This document shows positions 11,005 through 28,349 of a DNA stretch of 34,899 nt, one piece after another. The notes below the pieces were generated by a model. The model was not told where the DNA came from. It ran no database searches and worked only from the letters and a program-made list of their open reading frames with translations. Numbering within the stretch: position 1 is the first letter of the stretch; each line of letters starts with the position of its first letter. Source of the DNA: Nitrospirota bacterium (lineage in GTDB: Bacteria; Nitrospirota; Thermodesulfovibrionia; Thermodesulfovibrionales; Dissulfurispiraceae); the NCBI GenBank assembly GCA_021792185.1, contig JAJYVD010000022.1:1-34899 (forward strand). The letters run 5' to 3'. Position numbers and translations under genes: made by a program.

Positions 11005-11334
11005 ATGGCAACTGTAACAACAGAAAACATAATGTCCATTGTAAGCCTTATTGCAAAAAAGTTAAAAGAGGAGTATAGGGCAAAAGAAGTTATTCTTTTC
11101 GGCTCTTATGCGCGGGGCGAGGCTCATGAGGACAGCGACATTGACCTGCTCGTAATAGCGGATACAAAAGAAAGGCTACATGAGAGAATAGCAACCGTAC
11201 TAAAACTGTTGAGAGGACTAATACGATATACTCCTCTTTCCCCGATAGTATTAACACCTGATGAATTGGAAATACAGCTAAAAAAACACAATCAGTTTAT
11301 TGAAGAAATTATAGAAAGAGGAATAAGGATATGA
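11005..11334 (+). CDS. MNT-type nucleotidyltransferase (MntA-like antitoxin candidate)
   Basis: 109 residues, a minimal nucleotidyltransferase. The active-site pattern GSYARG...SDIDLLV is complete: Gly33-Ser34 and the metal-binding Asp45 and Asp47. In characterised MntA-HepT pairs the nucleotidyltransferase AMPylates and silences the HEPN partner. Its stop overlaps the ATG of the HEPN gene (ATGA), the usual arrangement. The gene is AT-rich compared with flanking hemA and hemC, and has no clear ribosome site. The two-gene module splits a haem operon, so it is probably a later arrival. Confidence 0.88.
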   Translation: MATVTTENIMSIVSLIAKKLKEEYRAKEVILFGSYARGEAHEDSDIDLLVIADTKERLHERIATVLKLLRGLIRYTPLSPIVLTPDELEIQLKKHNQFIEEIIERGIRI

Positions 11335-11729
11335 CATCTGCTAATGAGTCACTAAATCCTGAAGATTGGAAAAACATTGCACGAAAGGACTGGCACAGAA
11401 TTTTTGTTCTTCTGGACGACGGAGATGCTGATGGCGCTGCTATTTTCATTCAGCAATCAGTGGAGAAATATCTCAAAGCATTTCTGTTGCAAAATGGCTG
11501 GAAATTACGAAAAATACATGACCTCGTATCTCTGCTTGATTCTGCTGTAGACTTTAAACCTGCCCTTGAGACATTCAGAGATTTATGCGAACGGGTTACT
11601 GCTTATTACTTTGTTGAACGATATCCTCCATTCATTTCATCCGACCTGACAGTGCAAGATATCGAGAAAGACAAATCAGAAGCTATACAAATGATAAAGG
11701 CAATGTTTGAAAATGAAGAATTGAGTTGA
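11331..11729 (+). CDS. HEPN domain protein (partner of MNT nucleotidyltransferase)
   Basis: 132 residues, all helical. The pattern A.IFIQQSVEKYLKAFLL (residues ~37-53) and KIHDLVSLLD is that of the HEPN family of Pfam PF05168. The RNase motif R-X4-6-H found in toxic HEPN proteins of the HepT type is not obvious in the C-terminal half (only ERVTAYYFVERYPP), so ribonuclease activity is doubtful. It forms a translationally coupled pair with the upstream MNT gene. Toxin-antitoxin function is therefore plausible but not shown by sequence; a substrate-recognition role is an alternative. Confidence 0.85.
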   Translation: MTSANESLNPEDWKNIARKDWHRIFVLLDDGDADGAAIFIQQSVEKYLKAFLLQNGWKLRKIHDLVSLLDSAVDFKPALETFRDLCERVTAYYFVERYPPFISSDLTVQDIEKDKSEAIQMIKAMFENEELS

Positions 11730-15230: not shown

Positions 15231-18200
15231 TCAACGTTCAGTTTTCCTCCTGAATCCCCATGCGATAAGCCCGATAAAAACCAGAAATCCTATTAGGAAT
15301 AAATACGGTATCGGCGCTGATGATGCGCCGCCTGTCACATTTACATCCTGCATTTCGTAGCCTTCCACCCTTTTACCGCTTCCGTCAGGGGCTGGTTTAG
15401 GTTGTTGGCTATATGTTGAAGTTTTCTGCTCTGCCGTTCTGTTGTTTTGCTGCTCTGGATTTTGAATTTTATCCAATGCCTTCATAAATCCGCTCACCTG
15501 ACTTTTCAAGCCCGGTACTGACATCAATACGGATGATGTGAATTTTGTTAACTGCGGATTATTGCATGTGTGGTCGCAGCAGGCAAGTCCTACATCCTTA
15601 ACGCTTTCTGCATATTCTTTTGCCAATGTCTCTACAATTTTTTTATCAGGCTTCCAGTAATCCTTTCTCACTGTCTCAAACATCCTTGCTACAATTGATT
15701 GATATGCCCACATATTCTTTGATTTCCTGAACATCTCTTTTATATTCAGTCCATTTCTGTCTAAAACATAGGTCTCATACATCTCATTCCATTTTGCTGA
15801 ATCAACAGCCTCGGGCACCGTCACCTGCCATCCCCATAGGTGCTCCACTACCTTATCTACAAACCTCGCACCCGCATAGCCCTCTTTCATCATCGCCTTT
15901 ATCCATTCTGGATTAAGATACCTTGCCCTCATCTCACGACCCATGAATCTTTCAAGGGTCTCCTGTTTTGGCATTTTTGGATTGGACATATTCGTAACAT
16001 AAACTTCCGGTGTTTTGCCGTCCAGAACACGGATTGCCATTGCAGTGCCGCCTAAATATTGGAAGAAGTCGTCATTATCCAGTGTTGCATAAACATTCCC
16101 CGAACGACTATGGATGGCTATCTTTGAACCAGAAAGGGCATTCTTAAAAAGTGTTAAACTCACATCCTCTTGACTCTTAACTCCTAACTCCTCACTCCCA
16201 ACTTTACTTCCCCAAAACCCCTGCCCATACATATAACTCATCCTCATGAAATAGACATCCGCCACCTGTTTTTCGTTTTCCCATGTGTTTGACATAGGAA
16301 TTACTTTGTCAAGATTGGTCCCGTAAGCCCCTGAAGGCACTGTAAATAATCTCACAGATGCAAGCCTCTCTGCCTTATCCTCTGAGATTCCTTTTTCCAT
16401 GAGCATCTTCTTTGTCTTTAAAACATTTGACCTTAAGATATTATCTTCTTCATCCTGCTCCTTTGCTAAGCTCACAGCCTTATCAAGCAATGCCATAAGA
16501 TTGGAAAATAAATCCCTGTAAAGTCCTGATGGGACAATGGTTACATCAATGCGGGGTCTTCCGAGTTCAGAGCGTGGAATTGCCTCAACGCCTGTTACTC
16601 TGCCTCTCTCATCCCACTTTGGCTTTATACCCATGAGATACATAATCTGCGAGTCCATCACACCCTCATGCCTTATAGTCTCAACGCCCCATAAATTAAA
16701 TGCGAGTTTGTCGGGATACACTCCGTGCCTCTGTTTATAGCCTTCGATCAACTCCTTTGCCAGATTCACTCCCATCTCATATGTCGTCTTTGAAGGTATC
16801 CTTGTCGGATCAAATGAATAGAAGTTTTTGCCGGTGGGCAGGGAATTCGGATTCCTGATCGGATCGTTGCCCTGACCGGCGGGCACATACCTGCCGTTAA
16901 GCGCAGCGACAAAAGAATCAAGCTCCCTCTTACCTGATAGGATTATCCTCCGTTCATAATCAGCAATTCGTTTGTCCATTTCTTCTTTGCTCAACCCCTT
17001 TTCAATAGAAAGAATTGCCTCTGCTGTTGTCTTTCTGTATCTTTCATCAGGAGATTTTCCAAATGTATGCAATCCAAACGGAGTCTGTTTCTCTGCGATG
17101 TCTTTGATATAATGCTCCAGTTCCTCCATATCTTCAGCGGTCTTTATCTCATTCAATTTCAGGTCAGTAAAAATGCCAATTTTCTTTGCAAGGCTGTTAA
17201 TCTCATCAAGTTTAGCCTGCGCCAGCGACAGACTTTTCTCCTTTGCAGTATTGTAATCACTGATAAGCGCAGCAAGCTCTTTTAATTCCTTATTCATTCC
17301 TGCCTTATCAAACGGCGGTGTCATGTGGTCTATAATCACCGCCATCCCGCGTCTCTTTGCCTGAAGACCCTCGCCTACATTATCAACGATATACGGATAG
17401 ATATTCGGCAAATCCTGAATCAATGCCTCTGGCGGATCTTCATTTGTAAAACCTACTTCTTTACCTGAAAGCCACTCGTGTGTGCCGTGTGTTCCGATAT
17501 GTGCTATTGAATCAGCCTGAAAGCCTTTTTTTAGCCATAAGTAAAATGCAACATACTGGTGGTGCGGTGCGAGTGTTACATCGTGGTAGAGCTTTATTGA
17601 ATCCTGCTCCCAGCCTCTTGAAGGCTGCGGAGTGAGAATGATATTCCCATATCTAACAGCAGGAATGATTATATATTTTGTACCGCTGCCGCCTGTCCAT
17701 GACATAATTTTATTTCCTTCGGGCTTGCCCCAGTCTTTGATAACCGATTTTTTAAAACCTTCAGGCAATTCCTCAAACCATCTCTTATATGTCTCAATCG
17801 GAATAAGGACAGGTTTTCCTGTACGTGCAAGCCTGTCAATTTCTCCTGCCGCCCAATTGCCGATATTCCTTGCATAGTTATGGATGTTATTAAAAAGCCT
17901 TTCCTTGTTTACCTCTTGCCCTGTTACATCATAACCTTCAGCCTTTAGCATGTTCAGTATCTCATAGAGGCTCTCCGGCAGCACATTAAGATATGATGCA
18001 CCAATATTCTGCTTTCCAGGCGGATAGTTGTAATAGATTATGGCAATCCTCTTGTCTTTGTTAGCCTTATCCTGAAGATTTATCCATGCCTTCACCCTGT
18101 CAACAAGCCTATTTATCCTATCGTGGATAGGTTTTTCCTCCATATACTCTATCCCTGTCTCTTTATCAATCATCTTCTCTTTTGATGCAACGACCGTGGG

Positions 18201-19223
18201 CTGGATGATACCGGCAAGCTCCGGCAGGGCTATTTGCCACGACCTCTCAAATATGTCAAGACCGACAGGCGATTGCTCCCATTCCTCTTTTGATTTTGTG
18301 TAAAGGGTAATGGCATTGATGACAGGGACATCGAGCCTCTCAAGAACAGGATTCAGCGCCTTCGGATTTATGCCGACCTTCATGGACAGTCCAACGATAA
18401 ATCTTACTCTGCTTTTTCCTTTTTCATCAAAGAAGTATTTCTCTATTGCCTTCTCGGGCGGATACCCGTAAACAGGCAGGACATTGAAGCCTTCTCTTTC
18501 AAGACTCTCAATCACTGCGTCTATATGCTGCATATTGCCTGAGTCAAAAGAGCTTTTGTTGAATGTCAGTCCTATCCATTTGTTGTTATTTGTAATGCCG
18601 GATGAATTTGATTTCAAAAACTCGTTAAAATCTTCAAATATCCTTTTTTCTTTCTTCAGATAAATGCCGGAATCCGGCACAGGAGACGGTTTCTTGTATT
18701 CAACATTCAGCCCTAAGTCCCTGTTTAACACAAACAAAATCATGTTTTTTATATTCTCAAGACCGTTCTCTTTGTAATAAGCCTTTACCGTTTCATCATC
18801 AATAATGCCCATAGTCTTGTGTTCTTTGTTGTAAATGCCGCCTACCCCATAAACCTTTCCGTTATTTTTTACCGCATTTTCAATATGCGGTTTCACAATT
18901 TCTACAGCCTGCCTGTCCATAATGAGGAGTATAAATATGATCTTTGAAGAGGCGATTGCCTTATCCTGAGCGCCTTCATTCCTGATGCTGTGACTTGTAT
19001 AGACATTGAAGTTTACCTTTTCCTTTATTTCAGGATATTCCTTCTCTATTGCCTTTACAGCCTCAATTGCGATCTTTGAATGGCTGTCTCCGAGGAGAAG
19101 GCTGATTTCAAAAGGCTCTGCATGAGCAGTCGCAGTAAGAGCAATAAGAGACAGAATAATCAAAAGCCATCTAACTCCGAACTCTAAACTCCGAACTCTG
19201 AACGCTTGCCTACTCCGGCACAT
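15231..19223 (-). CDS. Exported, membrane-anchored CobN-like metallochelatase (HmuS-like)
   Basis: 1330 residues. The body is a CobN / Mg-chelatase H-type protein (e.g. HIGTHGTHEWLSGKEVGF, LDNDDFFQYLGGTAMAIR, NMSNPKMPKQETLERFMGRE). Unlike cytoplasmic CobN, it starts with a signal peptide (core WLLIILSLIALTATAHA, cleavage near residue 35) and ends with a membrane helix (~1306-1324) followed by RRKTER, so the enzyme should sit in the periplasm tied to the inner membrane. A GGGAGGG site before the ATG supports this start, which overlaps the DUF2149 gene by 14 nt. No CobS/CobT or ChlI/ChlD partners are present. Bacteroidota HmuS, a CobN homologue in haem-uptake operons with similar neighbours, is reported to strip metal from tetrapyrrole. 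The cobalamin riboswitch upstream favours a corrinoid or cobalt role here. Confidence 0.88.
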   Translation of the reverse strand: MCRSRQAFRVRSLEFGVRWLLIILSLIALTATAHAEPFEISLLLGDSHSKIAIEAVKAIEKEYPEIKEKVNFNVYTSHSIRNEGAQDKAIASSKIIFILLIMDRQAVEIVKPHIENAVKNNGKVYGVGGIYNKEHKTMGIIDDETVKAYYKENGLENIKNMILFVLNRDLGLNVEYKKPSPVPDSGIYLKKEKRIFEDFNEFLKSNSSGITNNNKWIGLTFNKSSFDSGNMQHIDAVIESLEREGFNVLPVYGYPPEKAIEKYFFDEKGKSRVRFIVGLSMKVGINPKALNPVLERLDVPVINAITLYTKSKEEWEQSPVGLDIFERSWQIALPELAGIIQPTVVASKEKMIDKETGIEYMEEKPIHDRINRLVDRVKAWINLQDKANKDKRIAIIYYNYPPGKQNIGASYLNVLPESLYEILNMLKAEGYDVTGQEVNKERLFNNIHNYARNIGNWAAGEIDRLARTGKPVLIPIETYKRWFEELPEGFKKSVIKDWGKPEGNKIMSWTGGSGTKYIIIPAVRYGNIILTPQPSRGWEQDSIKLYHDVTLAPHHQYVAFYLWLKKGFQADSIAHIGTHGTHEWLSGKEVGFTNEDPPEALIQDLPNIYPYIVDNVGEGLQAKRRGMAVIIDHMTPPFDKAGMNKELKELAALISDYNTAKEKSLSLAQAKLDEINSLAKKIGIFTDLKLNEIKTAEDMEELEHYIKDIAEKQTPFGLHTFGKSPDERYRKTTAEAILSIEKGLSKEEMDKRIADYERRIILSGKRELDSFVAALNGRYVPAGQGNDPIRNPNSLPTGKNFYSFDPTRIPSKTTYEMGVNLAKELIEGYKQRHGVYPDKLAFNLWGVETIRHEGVMDSQIMYLMGIKPKWDERGRVTGVEAIPRSELGRPRIDVTIVPSGLYRDLFSNLMALLDKAVSLAKEQDEEDNILRSNVLKTKKMLMEKGISEDKAERLASVRLFTVPSGAYGTNLDKVIPMSNTWENEKQVADVYFMRMSYMYGQGFWGSKVGSEELGVKSQEDVSLTLFKNALSGSKIAIHSRSGNVYATLDNDDFFQYLGGTAMAIRVLDGKTPEVYVTNMSNPKMPKQETLERFMGREMRARYLNPEWIKAMMKEGYAGARFVDKVVEHLWGWQVTVPEAVDSAKWNEMYETYVLDRNGLNIKEMFRKSKNMWAYQSIVARMFETVRKDYWKPDKKIVETLAKEYAESVKDVGLACCDHTCNNPQLTKFTSSVLMSVPGLKSQVSGFMKALDKIQNPEQQNNRTAEQKTSTYSQQPKPAPDGSGKRVEGYEMQDVNVTGGASSAPIPYLFLIGFLVFIGLIAWGFRRKTER
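15415..15465 (-). repeat. 8-nt-unit low-complexity tract in the cobN linker
   Basis: On the coding strand units such as CAGAGCAG, CAAAACAA, CAGAACGG and CAGAGCAG follow one another and encode the Gln/Asn-rich linker EQQNNRTAEQK before the C-terminal membrane anchor. Same style as the other short-period arrays in the window. Confidence 0.55.
16165..16200 (-). repeat. 7-nt-unit array translated inside the cobN-like gene
   Basis: On the coding strand units GAGTGAG, GAGTTAG, GAGTTAA and GAGTCAA run in tandem and are read in frame as GSEELGVKSQED (residues ~1008-1020), between the conserved YGQGFWGSKV and the SGSKIAIHSRSGNVYATLDN segment. It appears to be an insertion in a surface loop. Confidence 0.85.
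19171..19204 (-). repeat. 7-nt-unit array in the N-terminal region of the cobN-like gene
   Basis: Four to five heptamers (TTCAGAG, TTCGGAG, TTTAGAG, TTCGGAG, TTAGATG) are translated as FRVRSLEFGVR (residues ~8-18), giving the positively charged n-region in front of the signal peptide core. Confidence 0.88.
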
Positions 19224-19548
19224 AAATAACCCTCCCGTCTTTTAACTGATATGCTGTTCCGAGCCTTTCGCCCTCGCCGCTCAGCCGCTTGTCTGTTACC
19301 TTTTGAACCTTTATCTCCTTGCCCTTTTTTGTGATTACTTCTATTTTCCCGTCAGCAGTCTTTTTCGTTATTGTCATCTCTGATTTCGGGTTAAGCATAT
19401 CGAGCATGTTGTACGCCATAAACAGGGCGAGCATCATGCTTACGATAAAGACAACGCTTGCGTCAAAGAGGTTTGCAACGCCTGCTATCGGGTCTTCAAG
19501 CGGCTCATCATATTTTTCAAATCGCCTGTGTCTCTTCAAAAATCTCAT
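19210..19548 (-). CDS. DUF2149 / ExbD-like single-span membrane protein
   Basis: 112 residues with the chosen start (MRFLKRHRR), preferred over an ATG seven codons upstream because GGAGGAAGAGG precedes it. One membrane helix (VVFIVSMMLALFMAYNML, ~residues 32-50) follows a basic cytoplasmic start containing DPIAGVANLFDAS; the rest is a periplasmic domain ending RLGTAYQLKDGRVIYVPE. This topology and its place after an ExbB gene fit an ExbD-like partner; the sequence resembles DUF2149 proteins that accompany CobN/HmuS genes. It overlaps the exbB-like gene by 32 nt and the cobN-like gene by 14 nt. Confidence 0.82.
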   Translation of the reverse strand: MRFLKRHRRFEKYDEPLEDPIAGVANLFDASVVFIVSMMLALFMAYNMLDMLNPKSEMTITKKTADGKIEVITKKGKEIKVQKVTDKRLSGEGERLGTAYQLKDGRVIYVPE

Positions 19549-20128
19549 CCTCTTCCTCCAATTTTGCATTTTGAACTTTAAACTTTGAACCTCGGAGCGT
19601 CAGCTCCGTGAGATACTCCATCTCCCTCATATCTGCCCTTACCCATTTCTCTTTGATGAGGGAGACCATGTAGGCGGCAACACTGCACGCAAGACCGACA
19701 ACAACGGTTGTGAAGGCAGTTACCATGCTGCCTGCCATCTTCGGCATATCTCCCTGTGCAAGGGAAGACAGGGAAATGCCCATTGGTATAAGTGTCCCCA
19801 TTAATCCGAGGGCCGGCCCGACCCTTATAACAAATCTTATCCTGTCAAGGGATTTGATGAGGCCGAGCTCGGCATCCTGAAGGAGCCTTTCAAGATTGAT
19901 ATCAAGGCTGACATTAACCGTTGATAGCGACATCTCAGAGTCGAGCATCCTTTTGTATCTTTCGACTGATGAATAATAACCGCGCCTCCTTTCGAGGTAT
20001 TCCCTCAGAAAGCTGCCGAAATAGACAATAACCCATAATGTCAATGCAGTTAATCCGGCAACAACAGGGAACAGAAGAACAGAAGAAATAACATACAGAA
20101 AAGTCTCAAGACCCGCAAGAATGTTCAT
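19517..20128 (-). CDS. MotA/TolQ/ExbB proton channel family protein
   Basis: 203 residues, about three membrane helices. The signature region GPALGLMGTLIPMGISLSSL...MAGSMVTAFTTVVVGLACS (residues ~105-150) is that of the ExbB/TolQ/MotA proton channel. With the DUF2149 protein it should form a proton-driven motor in the inner membrane that could energise either the TonB receptor or the anchored CobN-like protein. The C-terminal tail, KFKVQNAKLEEEDE, partly derives from a 7-nt repeat array. The ORF starts one base before the end of the preceding gene's stop region, indicating coupling. Confidence 0.9.
   Translation of the reverse strand: MNILAGLETFLYVISSVLLFPVVAGLTALTLWVIVYFGSFLREYLERRRGYYSSVERYKRMLDSEMSLSTVNVSLDINLERLLQDAELGLIKSLDRIRFVIRVGPALGLMGTLIPMGISLSSLAQGDMPKMAGSMVTAFTTVVVGLACSVAAYMVSLIKEKWVRADMREMEYLTELTLRGSKFKVQNAKLEEEDEIFEETQAI
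19561..19591 (-). repeat. 7-nt-unit array at the exbB tail
   Basis: Plus-strand units TTTTGAA, CTTTAAA, CTTTGAA run in tandem. They encode SKFKVQNAK near the C-terminus of the ExbB-like protein, directly before the ribosome site of the DUF2149 gene. Confidence 0.75.
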
Positions 20129-20129
20129 G

Positions 20130-20897
20130 CTAAACCTCCTTTTTTAGGTTAGTTAAATATCCGACTAAACCGGCAAGAATCAGGATTATGATTACGCCAG
20201 CCATATTGCCCGCATCAATCCCCATCCCTTCTGAAAGAAAGGATTGGTACACAGCCTTTGCCTCTTCTATCTTCCGTGGCAGAAAGAGCGAGGAAATGAA
20301 ATAAAGGCCTATTGCAATCATGCCCAAACCCAGACTGATTTCAGGATTTGAAGTCTGCTTAAACCGTGTAAGTCCTACAACAGCAAGGGTTAGAAGAACA
20401 AAGACTATTCCGAGTCCCAGACCAACCAGCGCTGCGGGGAATTTAATCACACTCAGTGCAGTCCATGTGGAAAAGGTCATGGCAGTAAGACAGACAGGGC
20501 AAGGAATCAATAAGAGTGAAGAGTTAAAAGTTATGAGTTTAGAATTATCTTTTCGAATCTTTGCATTTGCATTACTTAACTCATGACTCGTGACTCTTGA
20601 CTCATGACTTCTGGCTTCTGTATTCTGTTTTCTCAATAAGAGAATTCCCCACACAATCATTCCTATCGCCATCAATGCATGGAGATACGGGCCTTTTCTC
20701 AGAACAGGCTCAAGAATCTTCATCAGTTGTTCCGAGAGGATTGCAATCACAACAAACAGGACAACATACATAGAAAGGGTTAGAAAAATGCCTTTCCGCT
20801 TTATTCCCCCAAAGCCAAGCCCAAAGCCGACCTTTACAGCAAATATGCCGAGACTGAAGAGCATGCCGCCAACCCATAAAATGATGTTCAAATCCAT
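20130..20897 (-). CDS. DUF2162-type polytopic membrane protein
   Basis: 255 residues with about six to seven hydrophobic helices beginning IILWVGGMLFSLGIFAVKVGF. A CPVC motif (residues ~133-136) sits at the start of a helix and could bind metal or a redox partner. Proteins of this kind (DUF2162, putative transporter) accompany ExbB, DUF2149 and CobN/HmuS genes in Bacteroidota and methanogens as I recall. Residues ~91-129 (EARSHESRVTSHELSNANAK and onward) are hydrophilic and come from a two-armed heptamer-repeat insertion at 20513-20630 between two helices. It lies 11 nt after the TonB receptor gene. Confidence 0.78.
   Translation of the reverse strand: MDLNIILWVGGMLFSLGIFAVKVGFGLGFGGIKRKGIFLTLSMYVVLFVVIAILSEQLMKILEPVLRKGPYLHALMAIGMIVWGILLLRKQNTEARSHESRVTSHELSNANAKIRKDNSKLITFNSSLLLIPCPVCLTAMTFSTWTALSVIKFPAALVGLGLGIVFVLLTLAVVGLTRFKQTSNPEISLGLGMIAIGLYFISSLFLPRKIEEAKAVYQSFLSEGMGIDAGNMAGVIIILILAGLVGYLTNLKKEV
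20513..20630 (-). repeat. Two-armed inverted heptamer-repeat element inside the DUF2162 gene
   Basis: The left arm (20513-20549) has GAGTTAAA / AGTTATG-type units, the right arm (20575-20630) has units TTAACTC, ATGACTC, GTGACTC, TTGACTC, ATGACTT, CTGGCTT. The arms are roughly complementary, so the whole ~118 bp can fold back. It keeps the host reading frame open and adds about 39 residues to a loop. The cca insertion at 27402-27470 has the same two-armed design. Confidence 0.85.
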
Positions 20898-20908
20898 ATT
20901 TCACCTCA

Positions 20909-23152
20909 CTAAAACCTTAATGTTATCTCCCCGAACCATGACCTTCCCGGCGCCTTGTAATAGCTGAAATAATCCCTGTCAAAGATGTTATCCACCGAGA
21001 AAGAGATCGTGGCATTCTTTGTAACTTTATAAGAGACCTTTGCATCTGCTGTAAAATATGGGTCATAAGAGGTATAGACACTGTTTACAACATCCTTATT
21101 TTCGTCGTTGGAATATCTCTTACTCACATACCGTCCGGTTGCCGATGCTGAAAACGCTCCCTTTTCAAACTCTGCGCCCGCATTGAACATCCTTTCCGGC
21201 ACATCCGTTAATCTCTTGCCGACTGTCTCCGGCTTGGCATTATTCTCTTTCAGCTTTGCATCGGTATAAGTAAAATTGGCAAAGAGCCTAAGCCATCTAT
21301 CAACCCTCTGTTCAGCCTCAATCTCCACTCCTTTGCTTTCTGCCTTTCCTGCATTTATCAACTCTTGATATGTTGCTGAAACCCTCTTTCTGTAAATAAG
21401 GTCTTCCATTTCGTTCTCAAAGTAAACAGCTTTGACCTTTGCTCCCTTCCAAAATCCCTGTTCAATACCGACATCCCATGAAGTAGTGGTCTCTGGCTTC
21501 AGGTCAGGATTCCCAGCGTAAGTGGTGCCTGACGAGGCTGTCCATGTCCTGTAGAGTTCATAAATCGTAGGCGGTCTGAATGCCTTTCCTATTGAGGTTC
21601 TCAAGGTGGTCTTATCAAAAGCCTTATACACAAGGGCAGCCTTTGGACTAAAGGCAGAGGCATTTCTTGAATCGTATTCCTTTGGATAACCAGTTGTGCC
21701 AACCTGATTCACATAGCCGTCTGTGGTCTCCCACCGGTCCTGCCTAAAACCGACATAAGCCGTAAGGTTTTTAAGAATCATTATCTCATCCTGAACAAAT
21801 AAGGCGTATGTCCTGTCATTTCCCTTTGCCTGATAGGAGAGGGTTGTCTTTGATGTCTCGTCCCTCCAGTTTGTGAGGTTTGTGTCCTTTGCATCAGCCT
21901 CTCCATGTCTCACAGAGCCGCCAAAAGTAACGATATGCCTCTCCAGCAGAGGAATGGTGAATTGAACATCAGCAGTGTATGCCTTTGAAGGAGACTCGCT
22001 CACCTTGCCTGTGCCTCCTGAACGCGTGGCAGTGGAGTTAGGGGTTACATACCACGACTTTTCCTGCTCAGCAAGCCCCAGTGATATTTTTGTCTTCACA
22101 TCTCCAAGCACAGTTTCATAGCCCATGCCGTAGATATTCTGTATCCTGCCGCCGGAGCCTGAAAGAAAGGATGATTCTTTTACGGTGCCATAAGACCAGA
22201 CCTCATTGCCCGCAGCGTTTTTCAAATATGTGTGAGGGGTGTCATAGTTATATTCATAGCGGGTTCTCATAAAGGAGAGATTAATCTTTGATGTTTTAGA
22301 GAAATCATATCCTGCCTTGAGTGTTACATTGTCATCCCACCACCTGTTATCACCTTTATCGCCAATCAGATAGCGTGTTTGTCCCTGATTGTTCGTTGTA
22401 TATGACCAGCCTGTAATTCCTGCCGTTGGCTTGCTGCTCTGGACATTAAAAGCAGTGGGATAACCATTGGTTGATTTGTAGCCATAACTTAAAAAGAGGC
22501 TCAATTTATCTTTAATTTTATCGCCATAGGAGAGATAAAATTTTCTCACGTCATCCATTGCATCTCCCCTGTCCCAACTTGAACCATATCCTGTCTTTAA
22601 AGTGAATTCCCTCTTTTCAGGCATCTTCGTTATGATATTGACGACCCCGCCCATCGCATACCCGCCGTAGAGGCTTGAGAACGGCCCCTTTATAACTTCG
22701 ATCCTCTCTACATCCTCCACAGCCATACCTCCGAAGCGGACGCCGCCTGAATAAGAGTCATTGAGAGTAATTCCGTCCATCAAAATCAAAGTCCTCTGCT
22801 GGGACGGTATGCCCCTTAAAGTAATGGATGTCATTGTATCCGCCAGCCCTTTGCCCCTGCTGTAAAAGACGCCAGAGACAGTGTTTAATGCCTCATCAAC
22901 GGTCTTGATATTTCTCTTTTCCATGACATCTTTTGTCATAACAGAAACACTACCCGGTGCGGTCTCTAATTCCTTTTCTGTCCTTGTTGCAGTAACGACT
23001 ATTTCTTCTAAAGATGCGGTCTTCTGTTCTGCAAATACAGGAACAGCAAACAGGGTAAAGGCGAATGGCAGATGGCTAAAGGCAAGTAAAACAACCGTGA
23101 TGGGTGATGCGTAATGCGTAATACGCTTAAATAAAGACAATAATCTTCTCAT
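20909..23152 (-). CDS. TonB-dependent outer-membrane receptor (BtuB-like, riboswitch-controlled)
   Basis: 747 residues. A signal peptide ends near VFA (residue ~41); the mature start has the TonB box-like EEIVVTATRTEKE, then the plug domain (SGVFYSRGKGLADTMTSITL, GIPSQQRTLILMDGITLND, VERIEVIKGPFSSLYGGYAMGGVVNIIT) and a beta-barrel ending with the aromatic terminus WFGEITLRF. Start ATG has GGGAGGAAAAG before it. A cobalamin riboswitch in its leader implies the substrate is a corrinoid, as for BtuB, although the operon partners are also those of haem receptors (HmuR). Two 7-nt arrays encode much of its signal peptide. Confidence 0.93.
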   Translation of the reverse strand: MRRLLSLFKRITHYASPITVVLLAFSHLPFAFTLFAVPVFAEQKTASLEEIVVTATRTEKELETAPGSVSVMTKDVMEKRNIKTVDEALNTVSGVFYSRGKGLADTMTSITLRGIPSQQRTLILMDGITLNDSYSGGVRFGGMAVEDVERIEVIKGPFSSLYGGYAMGGVVNIITKMPEKREFTLKTGYGSSWDRGDAMDDVRKFYLSYGDKIKDKLSLFLSYGYKSTNGYPTAFNVQSSKPTAGITGWSYTTNNQGQTRYLIGDKGDNRWWDDNVTLKAGYDFSKTSKINLSFMRTRYEYNYDTPHTYLKNAAGNEVWSYGTVKESSFLSGSGGRIQNIYGMGYETVLGDVKTKISLGLAEQEKSWYVTPNSTATRSGGTGKVSESPSKAYTADVQFTIPLLERHIVTFGGSVRHGEADAKDTNLTNWRDETSKTTLSYQAKGNDRTYALFVQDEIMILKNLTAYVGFRQDRWETTDGYVNQVGTTGYPKEYDSRNASAFSPKAALVYKAFDKTTLRTSIGKAFRPPTIYELYRTWTASSGTTYAGNPDLKPETTTSWDVGIEQGFWKGAKVKAVYFENEMEDLIYRKRVSATYQELINAGKAESKGVEIEAEQRVDRWLRLFANFTYTDAKLKENNAKPETVGKRLTDVPERMFNAGAEFEKGAFSASATGRYVSKRYSNDENKDVVNSVYTSYDPYFTADAKVSYKVTKNATISFSVDNIFDRDYFSYYKAPGRSWFGEITLRF
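23053..23083 (-). repeat. 7-nt-unit array in the signal-peptide core of the TonB receptor
   Basis: Plus-strand units GGTAAAG, GCGAATG, GCAGATG, GCTAAAG follow in tandem and encode AFSHLPFAFTL (residues ~24-34), the hydrophobic core of the signal peptide. Confidence 0.75.
23097..23126 (-). repeat. 7-nt-unit array in the n-region of the TonB receptor signal peptide
   Basis: Plus-strand units GTGATGG, GTGATGC, GTAATGC, GTAATAC in tandem encode RITHYASPIT (residues ~10-19). Confidence 0.85.
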
Positions 23153-23210
23153 CTTTTCCTCCCTCGGGAAATTTTTGATTTGGATTTGTCAGAGTCTCTT
23201 GTTCGTGTTT

Positions 23211-23240
23211 TTAACTCTTAACTCCGAACTCTAAACTCTG
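23211..23240 (-). repeat. 7-nt-unit array between riboswitch aptamer and start codon
   Basis: Four heptamers (TTAACTC, TTAACTC, CGAACTC, TAAACTC on the plus strand) directly abut the 3' end of the cobalamin aptamer. In the RNA the first bases CAGAGU could pair with ACUCUG ~40 nt downstream, so the array may be part of the expression platform. Confidence 0.8.
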
Positions 23241-23545: not shown

Positions 23546-23746
23546 TTAGCCAATTACTTTCTCCGCCTCTTCAAAAAGCCCGTTCATCTTTTTTGTCTCA
23601 TGATAGAGCTTATCGAGAACCTTTGAAAGTTCCTCATTGCCGAGCGATGACGCCTTCTCAGCCCACTGCCTGTAAGTCTCGGCGTGTTCGTCGTTATGCT
23701 CCTTCCAGTGGTGCAAAAGGTGTTTCAGTTTGTCGAGTTCGTTCAT
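23546..23746 (-). CDS. Small His-rich helical protein beside the cobalt transporter
   Basis: 66 residues with the start at MNELDKLKHLLHHW, chosen because AAAGGAG stands five nt upstream; a longer frame to 23932 runs through a MITE-like element and is unlikely. The segment HHWKEHNDEHAETYRQWAEK (residues ~11-30) is rich in His and acidic residues in a helical pattern, suitable for binding a divalent metal such as cobalt or nickel. Similar small proteins near nickel/cobalt transporters are familiar to me but carry no proven function. It follows cbiO in the same direction. Confidence 0.75.
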   Translation of the reverse strand: MNELDKLKHLLHHWKEHNDEHAETYRQWAEKASSLGNEELSKVLDKLYHETKKMNGLFEEAEKVIG

Positions 23747-23777
23747 ACATTCTCCTTTCAATATTCTTTTTATAATA

Positions 23778-23940
23778 GCAACATTGTGGACTGACTTGAA
23801 GCAAAATTTCTGGGTTCTCTGAGGGGCAAAGTAACGACTGCCCCTTCGCTCTGCACTAACCGAAACCTTATATTCAATCTTACATAAAACACAAGTATAA
23901 ACGACTAATAATTTTGCGAGAGTCAGTTCCACAATGTTGC
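23778..23940. mobile_element. MITE-like element with 31-bp terminal inverted repeats
   Basis: 163 bp between cbiO and the His-rich gene. The ends are imperfect inverted repeats of ~31 bp: left GCAACATTGTGGACTGACTT and onward (23778-23808), right the complement of GCAACATTGTGGAACTGACT and onward (23910-23940), both ending at GCAAAATT. No transposase inside. The inner block CTGACTCTCGCAAAATTATT (and AGTCG after it) reappears near 25807-25834 as CTGACTTTTGCAAAATAATT, so a related piece lies upstream of cbiQ. No clear target duplication. Confidence 0.72.
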
Positions 23941-23952
23941 ATTGTTACCTTC

Positions 23953-24762
23953 TCAATGTTTATGGAATAAATAATGCGAATGTATATGCCTGTGAGCGGA
24001 CGGGCCGTGGCAGTGCATATGCTCATGAACAAGGTTCACCTTTAAGAGCAATTCCTCGTCTTTTAAAATATCTTCCGCGCTGCCTGTTTTTTCGAGCCGG
24101 TGTTCTTCCGAAAGCACAGCCACGCTGCAATGAAGTTCGTCCACCAGTGATAAATCATGGGTCGCAATAACAATGGTTTTCCCAGCCTCGCCGAGCGCAA
24201 AGAGCAACTCAACGAGGAAACACTGCGTCCTCGGATCGAGGCCGTTTGTGGGCTCGTCAAAGAGCATTACTTCCGGGTTTATGGTCAATACAGAGCCTAT
24301 CGCGACCCTTTTTTTCTCACCGCCTGAAAGCATATATGAGGGTCTGTCCCTAAGATTTTCTATATTCAGCATCTGCATCACTTCGTGCGCTCTGTCCAGC
24401 GCTTCTCCTTCACTAATTCCAAGTTGCAAAGGTCCGTAAAGAAGCTCGTCAAGAACATTAGGACAGAATAATTGCACATCAGAGTCCTGAAATACATACC
24501 CTACCCCCCCCCGGAAAAATTTAAGTAGTCCTTTATCCTTTAAAGTCTTCTCCGATACCTCTTTGTCTCTGAAAAACACGCGCCCACTTGAAGGATATAT
24601 GAGGCCGTTCATTATCTGAAGAAGCGTAGATTTTCCACTGCCGTTCGCGCCTATGACGGCAAACCTCTCACCCTCTTTTATTGAAAGACTTACATCCTCA
24701 ATAGCAGGGATTTTGCCGTAATATTTATAGCTCACATTTTCTACTCTTATAATATTCTCCAT
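23953..24762 (-). CDS. cbiO: Cobalt ECF transporter ATPase CbiO
   Basis: 269 residues using the start MENIIRVENVSYKYYG, which has GGGAG just upstream; the longer frame to 24801 runs into a palindromic element. ABC ATPase motifs are complete: Walker A GANGSGKST (residues 38-46), Q-loop YVFQDSD, signature LSGGEKKRVAIG, Walker B VMLFDEPTNGLDP, and ATHD. The last ~24 residues are extremely His-rich (VHEHMHCHGPSAHRHIHSHY), a likely metal-binding tail. A run of nine C (24504-24512; G9 in the coding strand) lies within the gene before YVFQ. It powers cobalt import by CbiMNQ. Confidence 0.95.
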   Translation of the reverse strand: MENIIRVENVSYKYYGKIPAIEDVSLSIKEGERFAVIGANGSGKSTLLQIMNGLIYPSSGRVFFRDKEVSEKTLKDKGLLKFFRGGVGYVFQDSDVQLFCPNVLDELLYGPLQLGISEGEALDRAHEVMQMLNIENLRDRPSYMLSGGEKKRVAIGSVLTINPEVMLFDEPTNGLDPRTQCFLVELLFALGEAGKTIVIATHDLSLVDELHCSVAVLSEEHRLEKTGSAEDILKDEELLLKVNLVHEHMHCHGPSAHRHIHSHYLFHKH

Positions 24763-24781
24763 AGCACTCCCGTTATATATT

Positions 24782-24915
24782 CGAAGCATAGGATAAGGCA
24801 TTGAAGCGGCTTCGGCTAACTCCTAATGATCCACGGACGACAATGTAGACTGTGAATCGGAGAAAGGCTTGGATGCCTTTCGAGAATGAGCGGAAATACC
24901 TTGTCCTATGCTTCG
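24782..24915 (-). ncRNA. Multi-hairpin structured element, copy 1 (cbiQ-cbiO spacer)
   Basis: The element fills the cbiQ-cbiO gap. On the minus strand (the operon's sense) it has a 21-bp closing stem (CGAAGCATAGGACAAGGTAT paired with ATGCCTTATCCTATGCTTCG, one mismatch), a hairpin GAAAGGC-AUCCAA-GCCUUUC, a hairpin CUCC-GAUUCAC...GUGGAUC..GGAG, and GAAG-CCG-CUUC. A second copy at 32732-32861 shares the internal blocks CCGCTYATTCTCG, GCATCCA and GCCGAAGYCGCTTCA but has a different, still paired, closing stem. Could be a structured RNA or a palindromic mobile repeat. Confidence 0.7.
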
Positions 24916-24924
24916 TTACCATAA

Positions 24925-25773
24925 TCAAATCCATAAAAATATAATGCCGGCTGAAAACAATGCAAATCCCGCAGCCGCATCCAGCTTATTCATTTTTTTA
25001 AAGCCGTAAAGCATAACGGTATCCGAAAAACCTCTTGCAATCATAGCATTAAAAACATCTTCGCATCTCTGCCGGCTCTTTTTAAACATGAACGCAATCC
25101 TCCCGGCAACCCATCTCCTCGCGTCTTTGCTGCTTACTCCTGACGCGGTCCTGCTCTTCTTTGCGAGATACATATCCTCTATTGTCTTCGCAAAAATAAA
25201 AATATATTTATACGTAAGGGTTATGATCATTAAAACCGCATCAGGCACTTTTAACACTTTCAATGCCCTGATAATGTCTGCAAACGGCGTGGTATAGAGA
25301 ACAAGAAAAGACAACGACACCGAGTTTATAACCCTGAGTGTAAGCATCGCGACTACCGAAATGCCCTCTCCGGTAATGCCGATAGTTGCGGGAATATGGT
25401 ATATCCAGAGATCATAGGGTTTTGAAAAATGTATTAGAGGCAGGATAATATCTCCTTTTGTGATAACATTGAAAGCAGAAGGCAGGGCAATAAGAAAACC
25501 GAAAACGAATCCTAAAAAAAGGACTCTGCCGTAGAAATTCAAAATGTTTAATCTCGATGCGAATGTCAGGCCGAAAACAAAAAAAGCTATCGCAATTTCA
25601 GGCAGCAGTTCCCGTTTCAGGCTTACTATAACGATAAAAAAAATCAGGAAAAGCACTTTTATCCGCGCGTCAAGCCTCTGAAAAAATCCGTTTTCGGATG
25701 CCGATTCCCATTGGACATAACCGGTCTTAATGACCTTTCCTAAATGCTCTATGCCGCTTTCTATAAAAGACAT
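24925..25773 (-). CDS. cbiQ: Cobalt ECF transporter transmembrane protein CbiQ
   Basis: 282 residues from MSFIESGIEHLG; a GTG four codons upstream is possible but lacks a ribosome site, whereas AAAGG precedes this ATG. About six membrane helices; the cytoplasmic segment around ALKVLKVPDAVLMIITLTYKYIFIFAKTIED...KSRTASG is the coupling region typical of the CbiQ/EcfT family that docks CbiO. It transfers ATP-driven movement to CbiM for cobalt entry. Downstream is the multi-hairpin element, then cbiO. Confidence 0.93.
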   Translation of the reverse strand: MSFIESGIEHLGKVIKTGYVQWESASENGFFQRLDARIKVLFLIFFIVIVSLKRELLPEIAIAFFVFGLTFASRLNILNFYGRVLFLGFVFGFLIALPSAFNVITKGDIILPLIHFSKPYDLWIYHIPATIGITGEGISVVAMLTLRVINSVSLSFLVLYTTPFADIIRALKVLKVPDAVLMIITLTYKYIFIFAKTIEDMYLAKKSRTASGVSSKDARRWVAGRIAFMFKKSRQRCEDVFNAMIARGFSDTVMLYGFKKMNKLDAAAGFALFSAGIIFLWI

Positions 25774-25791
25774 TTTACCTTTCACCTGAAC

Positions 25792-25851: not shown

Positions 25852-26208
25852 CTAACTCTTCTTTAGCAAGAGCCTTGAAATTAAATAGACCACACCGCCC
25901 ACAAGGACTATACCCAGAATCCCCGAAATAATATAAGAGAAAATCTGAACCGTAAGCGAGGCATCCTCTCCTCCGAGATTATAATCGGTTATCGGCGCCT
26001 TCCATATATCCGTCAGCTTCTTCAATCCTTCCGGCACATATCCTAAAACCTTTTCCAGTGTGTCAGTTCCCCATTCTCCCCACGCGTCTCCAGCTTTGAA
26101 TTTCTCGGGAAGGATAATGCCGAGCGGCGACAGCAAGGCCATTATGATAAGCCATATCCAGAGTTTTTTCTGAAATGGCGTTATTTTTTTCTTATTTTGA
26201 TTTTCCAT
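25852..26208 (-). CDS. cbiN: CbiN/PDGLE-type cobalt transporter accessory protein
   Basis: 118 residues from MENQNKKKITPFQKKL. Two membrane helices (LWIWLIIMALLSPLGIIL near the start, and IFSYIISGILGIVLVGGVVYLISRLLL at the end) enclose an extracytoplasmic loop with DAWGEWGTDTLEKVLGYVPEG, the pattern of the CbiN/PDGLE family needed for CbiM activity. The start was moved from an upstream ATG at 26250 because AGGAG lies eight nt before this one; that ribosome site is itself part of a 7-nt repeat array. Confidence 0.85.
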   Translation of the reverse strand: MENQNKKKITPFQKKLWIWLIIMALLSPLGIILPEKFKAGDAWGEWGTDTLEKVLGYVPEGLKKLTDIWKAPITDYNLGGEDASLTVQIFSYIISGILGIVLVGGVVYLISRLLLKKS

Positions 26209-26242
26209 AGCCCATCTCCTATTGCCTATCGCCTTGTATTGC
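26206..26242 (-). repeat. 7-nt-unit array spanning the cbiM stop and cbiN ribosome site
   Basis: On the coding strand GGCGATA, GGCAATA, GGAGATG, GGCTATG run in tandem. They encode the last residues of CbiM (GDRQ-stop), supply the AGGAG ribosome site and end in the cbiN ATG. Confidence 0.85.
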
Positions 26243-26905
26243 ATAAACAACTTCCGGCTCGTGCTTGATAAAATATTTAAGCAGCATGGCTGTTATTACG
26301 CCTTCTATTATCCCGAACAATAACAGGTGTTCCAATGCCATCACCGGAACGGCAACGGACAGCGGATAAGGCGCGTAAAGAGGCCTGCCGTCAGAAGCAG
26401 ATGCGATCAAAGGCTGAATTCCGAACTCGACGGCGGTAACTATCGCGCTTAAAGAAAGTCCGATATATCCCGCAAAAAAACCGGCCGCATACAACCGTTT
26501 CGCGCTGTCAGATTTCCCCTTTATAAGTTTGAATGCCCAATATGATACAAAAGGCATTACTACCGCCATATTAAAGCAGTTTGCTCCAATGGCCGTTATC
26601 CCGCCGTCTCCAAACACAATAGCCTGAATTATTAGAGCTACGGATACCGCTATTACCGCTGTCCATGGCCCTAAAAGAAGCGCTGCAATGCCCGCGCCCA
26701 CGGCATGTCCGGTGGTTCCCCCGGGAATAGGAATATTGAACATCTGGATGATAAAAGAAAAGGCCGCTGCCATAGCGAGATATGGAATATGCTTGACTGA
26801 AAGCTCGCTCTTAAGCTTTCTAAGGGCGATTGCCCAAAAAGCGAACGACGCGCCGTAAAGCGGCACATAGGTCTGCGGGCTCAAATATCCGTCCGGAATA
26901 TGCAT
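26219..26905 (-). CDS. cbiM: Cobalt ECF transporter substrate-binding membrane protein CbiM
   Basis: 228 residues. The N-terminal MHIPDGYLSP is the CbiM signature: the free amino end and His2 form the metal site in this family. Six to seven helices follow, with NIPIPGGTTGHAVGAGIAALLLGPW and FGDGGITAIGANCFNMAVV conserved. GGAG lies upstream of the ATG. It is the first gene of cbiMNQO and has a leader with a hairpin-plus-T-run that could be an attenuator. Confidence 0.95.
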   Translation of the reverse strand: MHIPDGYLSPQTYVPLYGASFAFWAIALRKLKSELSVKHIPYLAMAAAFSFIIQMFNIPIPGGTTGHAVGAGIAALLLGPWTAVIAVSVALIIQAIVFGDGGITAIGANCFNMAVVMPFVSYWAFKLIKGKSDSAKRLYAAGFFAGYIGLSLSAIVTAVEFGIQPLIASASDGRPLYAPYPLSVAVPVMALEHLLLFGIIEGVITAMLLKYFIKHEPEVVYAIQGDRQ

Positions 26906-27062: not shown

Positions 27063-28349
27063 ATGAAGGATGCCCTTTTAAAACTATTCGTAGACTTCTC
27101 TGAAAAACACAGCCTTATTGATAACGCATTCATTGTAGGCGGATCTGTCAGGGATATTCTTTTAGGCAATGAGATTAAGGACATCGATATCGCCGTAAAA
27201 GGGGATTCGCTTAATATCGCAAGGAAATTTGCGGAAGAGACCGGCGGTTCGTTCGTGCTTCTCGACGCGGAATTCCAAATAGCGCGGGTGGTAAAAGACG
27301 GCTCTTTTCTGGACATCTCCGTTATGAGGGGAGACTCAATTCATGACGACCTTTCCGAGAGGGACATAACTATAAATGCGATGGCAATACCGCTAAAGAA
27401 CAGTTATGAGTTAAGAGTTAAGAGTTATGAGTCAAAAAACTCCAAACTCCAAACTCTAAACTCTAAACTCTTTCTCATAGACCCGTATGACGGGAGGGAT
27501 GATCTTTCTAACAGAATTATCAGGATGGTGTCGGAGGAAAACCTTATAAAAGATCCCCTGAGGATTCTCAGGATCTACCGATTCAGCGCCGAATTGGATT
27601 TTTTTATAGAAGCAGACACCTTAGACACAGCCGGAAGGCTTTCTCCGCTGATAAGCTCTGTTGCCGCTGAAAGAATAACCGAAGAACTGAGGCATATACT
27701 CAGGCTTGGTGATTCATATACCACGATTAAAACAATGAGCAATAAGGGCACACTGCAGCGTATATTTCCCGAACTTAAAGAGGACTTCGTAGTTCACAAT
27801 TTAGAATTATACAAAAATGTCGAGGATATTTTGAATAATTTCTCCCGCTTCATGCTTCCGGATTTAAAAAAAATATGCCTTAAGCTGTCCACATTTTTCA
27901 CCGATGCGGACACAGCTAAAAATGCGTCCATACGGCTGAAGATGTCGAAGAAAGAGGTGGAGTTTGTTCATAAGATGGTATCGAACCACCGCCGCATTCT
28001 AAGTCAATACGAAGAATACAACGGTGATTTTGATGAGATTGTATCGATAAGGCTTTTAAAGGAATTCAGGGATGAAATATATCCGCTGATAATCCTCACT
28101 ATTGCACAAATGCCTGATATTACAAATTTCTGCGAGAAACTGCTATCGTTTTATGAAAAAATATTTAAAGAGAGAATGAAGCTCCTTCCGGTTATCACAG
28201 GCGGCGACCTGATGAGAGAATTAAACTTAAAACCGTCCCCATCATTCAAGAAAATACTTACTGCAGTAGAGGATATGGTCTTAGAGGGAAAAATAACCTC
28301 CTCCAAAGAGGCGCTGAGAACTGCCCGCAGGATACTAAAAACAGAATGA
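27063..28349 (+). CDS. cca: CCA-adding enzyme / poly(A) polymerase family nucleotidyltransferase
   Basis: 428 residues from MKDALLKLFVDF; a longer GTG frame to 26979 runs into the cbiM leader hairpin and is rejected. The catalytic head has VGGSVRDILLG (Gly26-Gly27) and the metal-binding DID (Asp40, Asp42), followed by RDITINAMA and DPLRILRIYRFSAEL, typical of class II tRNA nucleotidyltransferases that add or repair tRNA 3' CCA. Whether it is a CCA-, A- or CC-adding form cannot be told. Residues ~114-136 are an in-frame heptamer-repeat insertion just before LIDPYDG. No good ribosome site is visible. Confidence 0.9.
   Translation: MKDALLKLFVDFSEKHSLIDNAFIVGGSVRDILLGNEIKDIDIAVKGDSLNIARKFAEETGGSFVLLDAEFQIARVVKDGSFLDISVMRGDSIHDDLSERDITINAMAIPLKNSYELRVKSYESKNSKLQTLNSKLFLIDPYDGRDDLSNRIIRMVSEENLIKDPLRILRIYRFSAELDFFIEADTLDTAGRLSPLISSVAAERITEELRHILRLGDSYTTIKTMSNKGTLQRIFPELKEDFVVHNLELYKNVEDILNNFSRFMLPDLKKICLKLSTFFTDADTAKNASIRLKMSKKEVEFVHKMVSNHRRILSQYEEYNGDFDEIVSIRLLKEFRDEIYPLIILTIAQMPDITNFCEKLLSFYEKIFKERMKLLPVITGGDLMRELNLKPSPSFKKILTAVEDMVLEGKITSSKEALRTARRILKTE
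27402..27470 (+). repeat. Two-armed inverted heptamer-repeat element inside cca
   Basis: 69 bp, a multiple of three. The left arm has units AGTTATG, AGTTAAG, AGTTAAG, AGTTATG; the right arm AACTCCA, AACTCCA, AACTCTA, AACTCTA. The arms are largely complementary (GAGTTAAG against GAGTTTAG), so the segment can fold as a hairpin. Translated as SYELRVKSYESKNSKLQTLN and onward, inserted between AIPLKN and LIDPYDG. Confidence 0.92.

Follow-up and report, generated by a model that had tools for sequence, protein, structure and literature searches.

A cobalamin riboswitch-headed operon from a Nitrospirota bacterium with a predicted exported HmuS-type chelatase homologue: a candidate system for corrinoid processing and cobalt recovery

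Among class I chelatase homologues, HmuS is a demonstrated haem dechelatase, the activity of which needs H538 (PMC12583661). A gene cluster with a CobN homologue from Trichlorobacter (Geobacter) lovleyi was described in 2012, and transport, not demetallation, was proposed as its function (PMC3403914). Furthermore, hmu-like operons of Bacteroides with a cobalamin riboswitch were noted in 2023 (PMC10100974), and in 2003 Rodionov had introduced the name BtuS for a third type of CobN (as cited in PMC6460266). Here, we analyse an operon from a Nitrospirota bacterium (assembly GCA_021792185.1, contig JAJYVD010000022.1; the window, i.e. the whole stretch of DNA analysed, comprises 34,899 nt), in which a homologue of CobN and HmuS, hereafter the CobN-like protein, is encoded together with a TonB-dependent receptor, ExbB, DUF2149 and DUF2162 proteins behind a cobalamin riboswitch (Table 1). 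We favour, at a probability that we put a little short of even, the reading that it specifies a B12-repressed periplasmic system for corrinoid processing and cobalt recovery built on an HmuS-type chelatase, in which corrinoids would be demetallated for their cobalt. The preliminary description of the locus had listed a CobN-like protein with a signal-like N-terminus and a C-terminal anchor, ExbB, DUF2149, DUF2162, the riboswitch and adjacent cobalt importers, and this layout is borne out by profile matches and by reading of the sequence.

Phylogenetic placement was assessed with a tree of 105 homologues and with a second, smaller tree computed with a mixture model. Both divide into three sides: BchH, classical CobN, and a superclade that unites HmuS with the window type (98-99% in the Shimodaira-Hasegawa-like approximate likelihood ratio test, SH-aLRT). 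Classical CobN proteins, encoded in aerobic B12 clusters, form a single clade (99-100% SH-aLRT) with the window protein outside of it, and within the superclade HmuS is set apart from the window type (98% SH-aLRT). A topology that joins the window type to classical CobN and leaves HmuS out was rejected (approximately unbiased test, p 0.005), and membership in HmuS proper was ruled out by residues, by the methionine-rich insertion and by clade. Judged from its sequence, the window protein is no classical CobN but a relative of HmuS placed outside the HmuS clade, and the kinship with HmuS formerly drawn from the parallel with hmu operons is thus upheld by phylogeny (99% SH-aLRT). The predicted structure (predicted local distance difference test, pLDDT, 84.9) has HmuS (9d26) as its best Foldseek match with a TM-score of 0.84, followed by CobN with 0.76, and VIA-align places CobN and ChlH slightly above HmuS; since the two methods rank differently, the fold alone does not decide between HmuS and CobN. 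It should be added that in one relative from the same phylum (L026) the CobN homologue is divided over two genes, for its N- and its C-terminal part, which adjoin those for ExbB and DUF2149.

The N-terminus of the CobN-like protein consists of a basic stretch, a hydrophobic core and the junction AHA/EP (reading ...RWLLIILSLIALTATAHA/EP...), which by eye is a Sec-type signal, and its C-terminus is a hydrophobic transmembrane helix followed by RRKTER, so that by the positive-inside rule the body of the protein is predicted to be periplasmic. Hydropathy maxima reach 2.1 at the N-terminus and 2.6 at the C-terminus, as compared to -0.2 to 0.7 at the C-termini of classical CobN. Nearly all homologues share the signal-like N-terminus and the C-terminal transmembrane helix, the latter being missing from classical CobN. 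From these features we infer, in agreement with what had been proposed earlier, that the protein is exported and membrane-anchored.

H579 is the aligned and conserved counterpart of the catalytic H538 of HmuS. The cleft carries D1051-D1052-Q1055, as in most classical CobN, the corresponding residues being D-H-E in HmuS and D-H-D in BchH; thus, H1209 and E1212 of the HmuS motif LSLDHxxEFMGG are replaced by D1052 and Q1055. As regards the haem site of HmuS, H254 aligns with M281, and M79 with M102, the latter in a variable region of uncertain alignment; the methionine-rich insertion of HmuS corresponds to a gap in the window protein (alignment columns 1301-1500). Moreover, a motif CCDHTCNNP (C1215/C1216/H1218/C1220), almost invariant in the window clade, precedes the C-terminal anchor and was not found in HmuS, BchH or classical CobN in the alignment of homologues. 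That it serves as a metal relay is a guess. Presence of CCxHTC agrees with B12 synthesis in 47 of 51 rows, mostly through one change in the tree, and was therefore discarded as independent evidence.

The count of the module covered 68 complete loci, from the window type and its wider clade, with ExbB and DUF2149 genes required within 6 kb on the same strand; 13 loci, 12 of them with classical CobN or BchH, served as controls. Both genes stand beside the CobN-like gene in 64 of the 68 loci vs none of the 13 controls. Three of the four exceptions, of Chitinophagaceae type, also lack the C-terminal transmembrane helix, and this joint loss suggests that the helix docks on ExbB-DUF2149. In ExbB, T112 is invariant and T140 conserved in 89% of 65 homologues, at the positions of the conserved threonines of canonical ExbB; in DUF2149, D36 is conserved in 98% of 66 homologues, and G83, G100, G104, Y107, Y116 and P118 are near-invariant. 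T112 and D36 are thus conserved at places that proton-pathway residues occupy in ExbB/ExbD. DUF2149 matches the ExbD/TolR pattern of one transmembrane helix, an N-terminal Asp and an ExbB partner. Its model (pLDDT 61) has a confident helix 27-59 and a beta-rich C-terminal part of low confidence, and comparison with solved structures gave nothing by sequence and, for the fold of this low-confidence model, no PDB match at E <= 0.001. DUF2149 and canonical ExbD co-occur in 13 loci, where the DUF2149 pair is consequently not simply a TonB energiser. As to the slot next to ExbB, profile comparison of its occupants (DUF2162, HmuT, the urease-accessory protein of Runella and a 214-aa protein of Dyadobacter) found no similarity; a common permease family, and with it a conserved fifth component, cannot thus be claimed. 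In Gallionellaceae/Methylotenera loci (L085, L088, L096) DUF2162 is replaced by a PepSY_TM protein, related to siderophore reductases, and no riboswitch stands beside the module.

The B12 control and the cobalt link formerly ascribed to the locus hold in the window, with an RF00174 match at the head of the operon and cbiM, cbiQ and cbiO upstream, and a survey of co-occurrence extends the former: in at least 25 of 50 surveyed genomes, from several phyla, a cobalamin riboswitch lies within 900 nt 5' of the module, positions being given on the assumption that the matched contig is that of the locus; a B12-box motif check agreed in 23 of the 25. Relative L027 has the riboswitch 5' of the module as the window does, and anammox planctomycetes have tandem ones. 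In 17 loci, a gene for CbiZ (adenosylcobinamide amidohydrolase) belongs to the operon or adjoins the CobN-like gene. This CbiZ has a signal-like N-terminus in L027, L045, L054 and L101; a further CbiZ occurs in L060; and predicted periplasmic BtuF-CbiZ fusions occur in L028, L065, L111, L113 and L120. In Propionivibrio (L067, 4915-6942), an exported-looking CbiZ is fused to a carbon-nitrogen hydrolase (nitrilase) upstream of the receptor, ExbB and CobN-like genes. CbiM/N/Q genes are found near the module in 11 loci, and in the closest relative (L045) cbiM and cbiQ-cbiO flank it on both sides. In anammox loci, a DUF4430 protein, which we take to resemble the C-terminal domain of transcobalamin, is encoded between the receptor and the CobN-like protein. 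Exported CbiZ and BtuF-CbiZ fusions point to a corrinoid substrate, and the riboswitch, CbiZ, CbiM/N/Q and DUF4430 together point to corrinoids and cobalt. Of the periplasmic corrinoid dechelatase envisaged in the preliminary description, the corrinoid part has thereby gained support, and the metal removal stays conjectural.

A CbiK-type chelatase with a signal-like N-terminus adjoins the module in L121 (8553-9437); periplasmic CbiK is known from Desulfovibrio. On a plasmid of Runella slithyformis (L030, 2887-13604), genes for a TonB receptor, a urease-accessory-type membrane protein, ExbB, DUF2149 and the CobN-like protein lie within a hypBF...hypCDE hydrogenase-maturation operon, and this module is probably a nickel version.

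The host genome (2.65 Mb, 99% complete) encodes a single CobN homologue, and its partner proteins were searched for family by family with profiles. CobS (TIGR01650) and ChlI were not found, the PF01078 hits being ComM-like or regulator-type only, and CobT and ChlD were not searched separately. The combination named in the preliminary description as refuting it, a place within the classical CobN clade and CobS/CobT elsewhere in the genome, was not observed. Another contig carries a B12 gene cluster with two further cobalamin riboswitches and CbiX-CbiC and CbiG-CbiH fusions; the host has the full anaerobic pathway with CbiX, in which cobalt enters early, and can therefore do without CobN in making B12. 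The family search also found no FecCD (BtuC-type) permease. In contig C2 (26774-28111; L016:1774-3111), a radical-SAM peptide maturase CbpB (TIGR04163, 518 bits, above cut-off) directly follows a cbiMNQO-type cluster, and a cobalt-linked modified peptide is possible there.

In the mechanism that we favour, scarcity of B12 would open the operon through the riboswitch, and the TonB-dependent receptor would bring a corrinoid or a related cobalt complex into the periplasm, where the anchored CobN-like protein would bind the corrinoid in its central cleft. Cobalt would be removed by the class I chelatase reaction run backwards, as HmuS does with haem, with H579 as acid or ligand; Co2+ freed in the periplasm, possibly handed on by the CCDHTCNNP motif, would be imported by CbiMQO for the anaerobic pathway, in which CbiX would insert it. 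The ExbB-DUF2149 pair, as a TolQR/ExbBD-like proton channel, would probably power the CobN-like protein, as the ATP motor CobST does for classical CobN. We infer the metal removal, its direction, the substrate, the energy coupling and the metal hand-over. Demetallation is in keeping with the absence of BtuC and with de novo B12 synthesis in the window lineage and in anammox bacteria, in whose genomes B12 synthesis and the module are mostly present and a strong FecCD is mostly absent. More tentatively, we consider it possible that in relatives exported CbiZ trims corrinoids, and that the anchored CobN homologue, driven by protons via ExbB-DUF2149, strips corrinoids of their cobalt, so that B12 makers, anammox bacteria included, would use foreign corrinoids as a cobalt source.

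Several points weigh against demetallation. The corrin holds its cobalt very tightly, and we know of no enzyme that takes cobalt from an intact corrin. The D-D-Q signature is not confined to branches under B12 control and is thus no proof of corrin binding, and the family search found no CbiZ in the host genome. The only ExbD-family protein of the host is TolR, in a TolQRA-TolB cluster (Tol names by our own reading of the sequences), with no canonical ExbB/ExbD; ExbB-DUF2149 could thus energise TonB, and in this host it may do so rather than drive the chelatase. Finally, Duganella and relatives, which have the module and the riboswitch, lack CbiC and are unable to make B12, so that free cobalt would gain them nothing in that respect; demetallation fits such auxotrophs poorly, and in them the role of the module may be corrinoid handling without it.

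The last point leads to an explanation that we regard as unlikely, albeit one to be taken seriously, namely a corrinoid importer without metal removal, in which the CobN-like protein would be a periplasmic corrinoid receptor, ExbB-DUF2149 would supply the proton motor, and the channel would be DUF2162 or some other permease, altogether a proton-driven replacement of BtuFCD delivering corrinoids or CbiZ products intact. The lack of a BtuC-type permease in the host, the usual role of CbiZ in readying corrinoids for re-use and not for destruction, the retention of the riboswitch-controlled module by auxotrophs and the predicted transporter nature of DUF2162 speak for it. However, DUF2162 stands beside the module in only 23 of the 68 complete loci, being absent from about two thirds of them and from nearly all anammox loci, and many module-bearing genomes do carry FecCD; moreover, the relative HmuS is a dechelatase, the catalytic His is conserved and CbiMNQO genes are within the operon. 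We give a rather low probability to a third explanation, by which the receptor would take up Co2+, a cobalt metallophore or a metalloporphyrin, and the CobN-like protein would strip off the metal or hand it to CbiMQO, with a different metal for every branch of the family. It accords with the metal-site appearance of CCDHTCNNP and with the same four-gene module in B12-free contexts, i.e. Zur-regulated PA1922-1925 (PMC4542158, PMC9431628), the hyp genes of Runella and haem iron in hmu operons, but exported CbiZ and the BtuF-CbiZ fusions, encoded in operons of relatives, indicate a corrinoid. That the protein is a common cytoplasmic cobaltochelatase CobN acting in late cobalt insertion, and was mistaken for an exported one, is very improbable, for although many relatives bear the database name cobaltochelatase subunit CobN, a classical CobN of aerobic B12 synthesis is ruled out by the position outside the classical clade, the missing CobS and ChlI and the early-insertion CbiX pathway, and the terminal features described above argue likewise.

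Table 1. Features of the operon and of the neighbouring cobalt-transport genes, with positions in the window
Feature	Position	Strand	Evidence and remarks
CobN/HmuS-type class I chelatase homologue, predicted exported and membrane-anchored, 1,330 aa	15231..19223	-	Pfam CobN-Mg_chel 1095.7 bits, full length
DUF2149, ExbD-like topology, one transmembrane helix, Asp36 at helix start	19210..19569	-	Pfam 112.3 bits
ExbB/MotA/TolQ-family proton-channel subunit	19517..20128	-	Pfam 39 bits
DUF2162, predicted inner-membrane transporter	20130..20897	-	Pfam 195.8 bits
TonB-dependent outer-membrane receptor	20909..23152	-	Pfam TonB_dep_Rec_b-barrel 192 bits, Plug 88 bits
Cobalamin riboswitch aptamer RF00174	23238..23464	-	heads operon; cmscan 63.9 bits vs gathering score 31.5; also read directly in the sequence
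CbiO-type ECF ATPase, His-rich tail	23953..24801	-	Pfam ABC_tran; NCBIfam cbiO-type
CbiQ, cobalt ECF T component	24925..25785	-	TIGR02454 113.4 bits, above cut-off
PDGLE-domain protein, CbiM/CbiN type	25852..26250	-	Pfam PDGLE 31.5 bits
CbiM, cobalt ECF substrate-specific component	26219..26905	-	Pfam CbiM 220 bits; NF008873 297.9 bits, above cut-off

The operon reads, 5' to 3', riboswitch, TonB-dependent receptor, DUF2162, ExbB, DUF2149 and CobN-like gene, with 86 nt from the riboswitch end to the receptor ATG, and the genes for CbiM, the PDGLE protein, CbiQ and CbiO lie upstream of the riboswitch on the same strand. This gene order, with the hem genes alongside, is also found in related genomes of independent origin; therefore, the locus is no assembly artefact. 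The receptor matches both a haemin and a B12 model of NCBIfam, each below cut-off, and a PDB search for its substrate was not decisive, the colicin I receptor, the pyochelin receptor and BtuB all being matched. Between cbiO and the riboswitch there is a small His-rich open reading frame (23546-23932, minus strand; 67 aa from an internal ATG, MNELDKLKHLLHHWKEHNDEHAETYRQWAEKA...). Tandem heptad repeats of AGTTNNG type were seen at 16167-16198, 19175-19206, 20575-20612, 23208-23239 and near 27455, inserted in coding sequence (signal n-region and interior of CobN, DUF2162) and directly after the riboswitch; SLEFRV-like peptides, related to those of the repeats, occur elsewhere in the genome. A toxin-antitoxin-like Nucleotidyltransferase-HEPN pair lies between hemA and hemC (11005-11729, plus strand); in relative L024, hemA and hemC overlap and the pair is missing.

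If the favoured reading is true, the CobN-like protein would, to our knowledge, be the first enzyme to extract cobalt from a corrin, as well as the first class I chelatase in which proton motive force takes the place of an AAA+ ATPase. The view of B12 flow in communities would change, with corrinoids eaten for their metal rather than shared, and many proteins that carry the name cobaltochelatase CobN, and by which genomes are scored for B12 synthesis, would be misnamed. HmuS would be one branch of a wider metal-recovering family, the branches of which appear to serve haem iron, zinc, nickel and corrinoids/cobalt. In the open-licence papers searched, we found nothing on a link to exported CbiZ and to cobalt importers, on the occurrence in several phyla or on the anchor being lost along with the ExbB-DUF2149 pair.

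Compared to known systems, the window protein shares the fold, the catalytic His and the D-D-Q cleft of most classical CobN with the CobN of CobNST (PDB 7c6o, 9fpc), which is, in contrast, cytoplasmic, soluble, driven by the CobST ATPase and placed in a separate clade. The Pseudomonas aeruginosa operon PA1922-PA1925 likewise combines genes for a TonB receptor, a CobN-like protein, an ExbB/ExbD-annotated protein and DUF2149, but it is Zur-regulated and zinc-responsive, with no B12 riboswitch reported (PMC4542158, PMC9431628). The riboswitch-headed hmu-like operons of Bacteroides and BtuS resemble our locus in a CobN-like protein under B12 control, with salvage of cobalamin or metalloporphyrin suggested; they differ in being from Bacteroidota and HmuS-like, and the cited parts of these sources (PMC10100974; PMC6460266 for BtuS) report no CbiZ, cobalt importer or cross-phylum survey. 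The cobN-exbB-exbD-tonB cluster on pSZ77 of T. lovleyi (PMC3403914) has an additional canonical ExbB-ExbD-TonB set and a second receptor, unlike the window, and agrees with it in the order TonB receptor-DUF2162-ExbB-DUF2149-CobN, in the vicinity of B12 and CbiMNQ genes and in an orthologue 64% identical to the window protein. As for HmuS of the Bacteroidota hmu operons (PDB 9d26, PMC12583661), the window protein is without the methionine-rich insertion, H254, H1209 and E1212, and the window operon has no HmuY, has DUF2162 instead of HmuT (no detectable similarity) and adds the cobalamin riboswitch and cobalt importers; yet both share a signal and membrane anchors, the CobN/ChlH fold, the catalytic His and an operon with a TonB receptor, ExbB (HmuU) and DUF2149 (HmuV).

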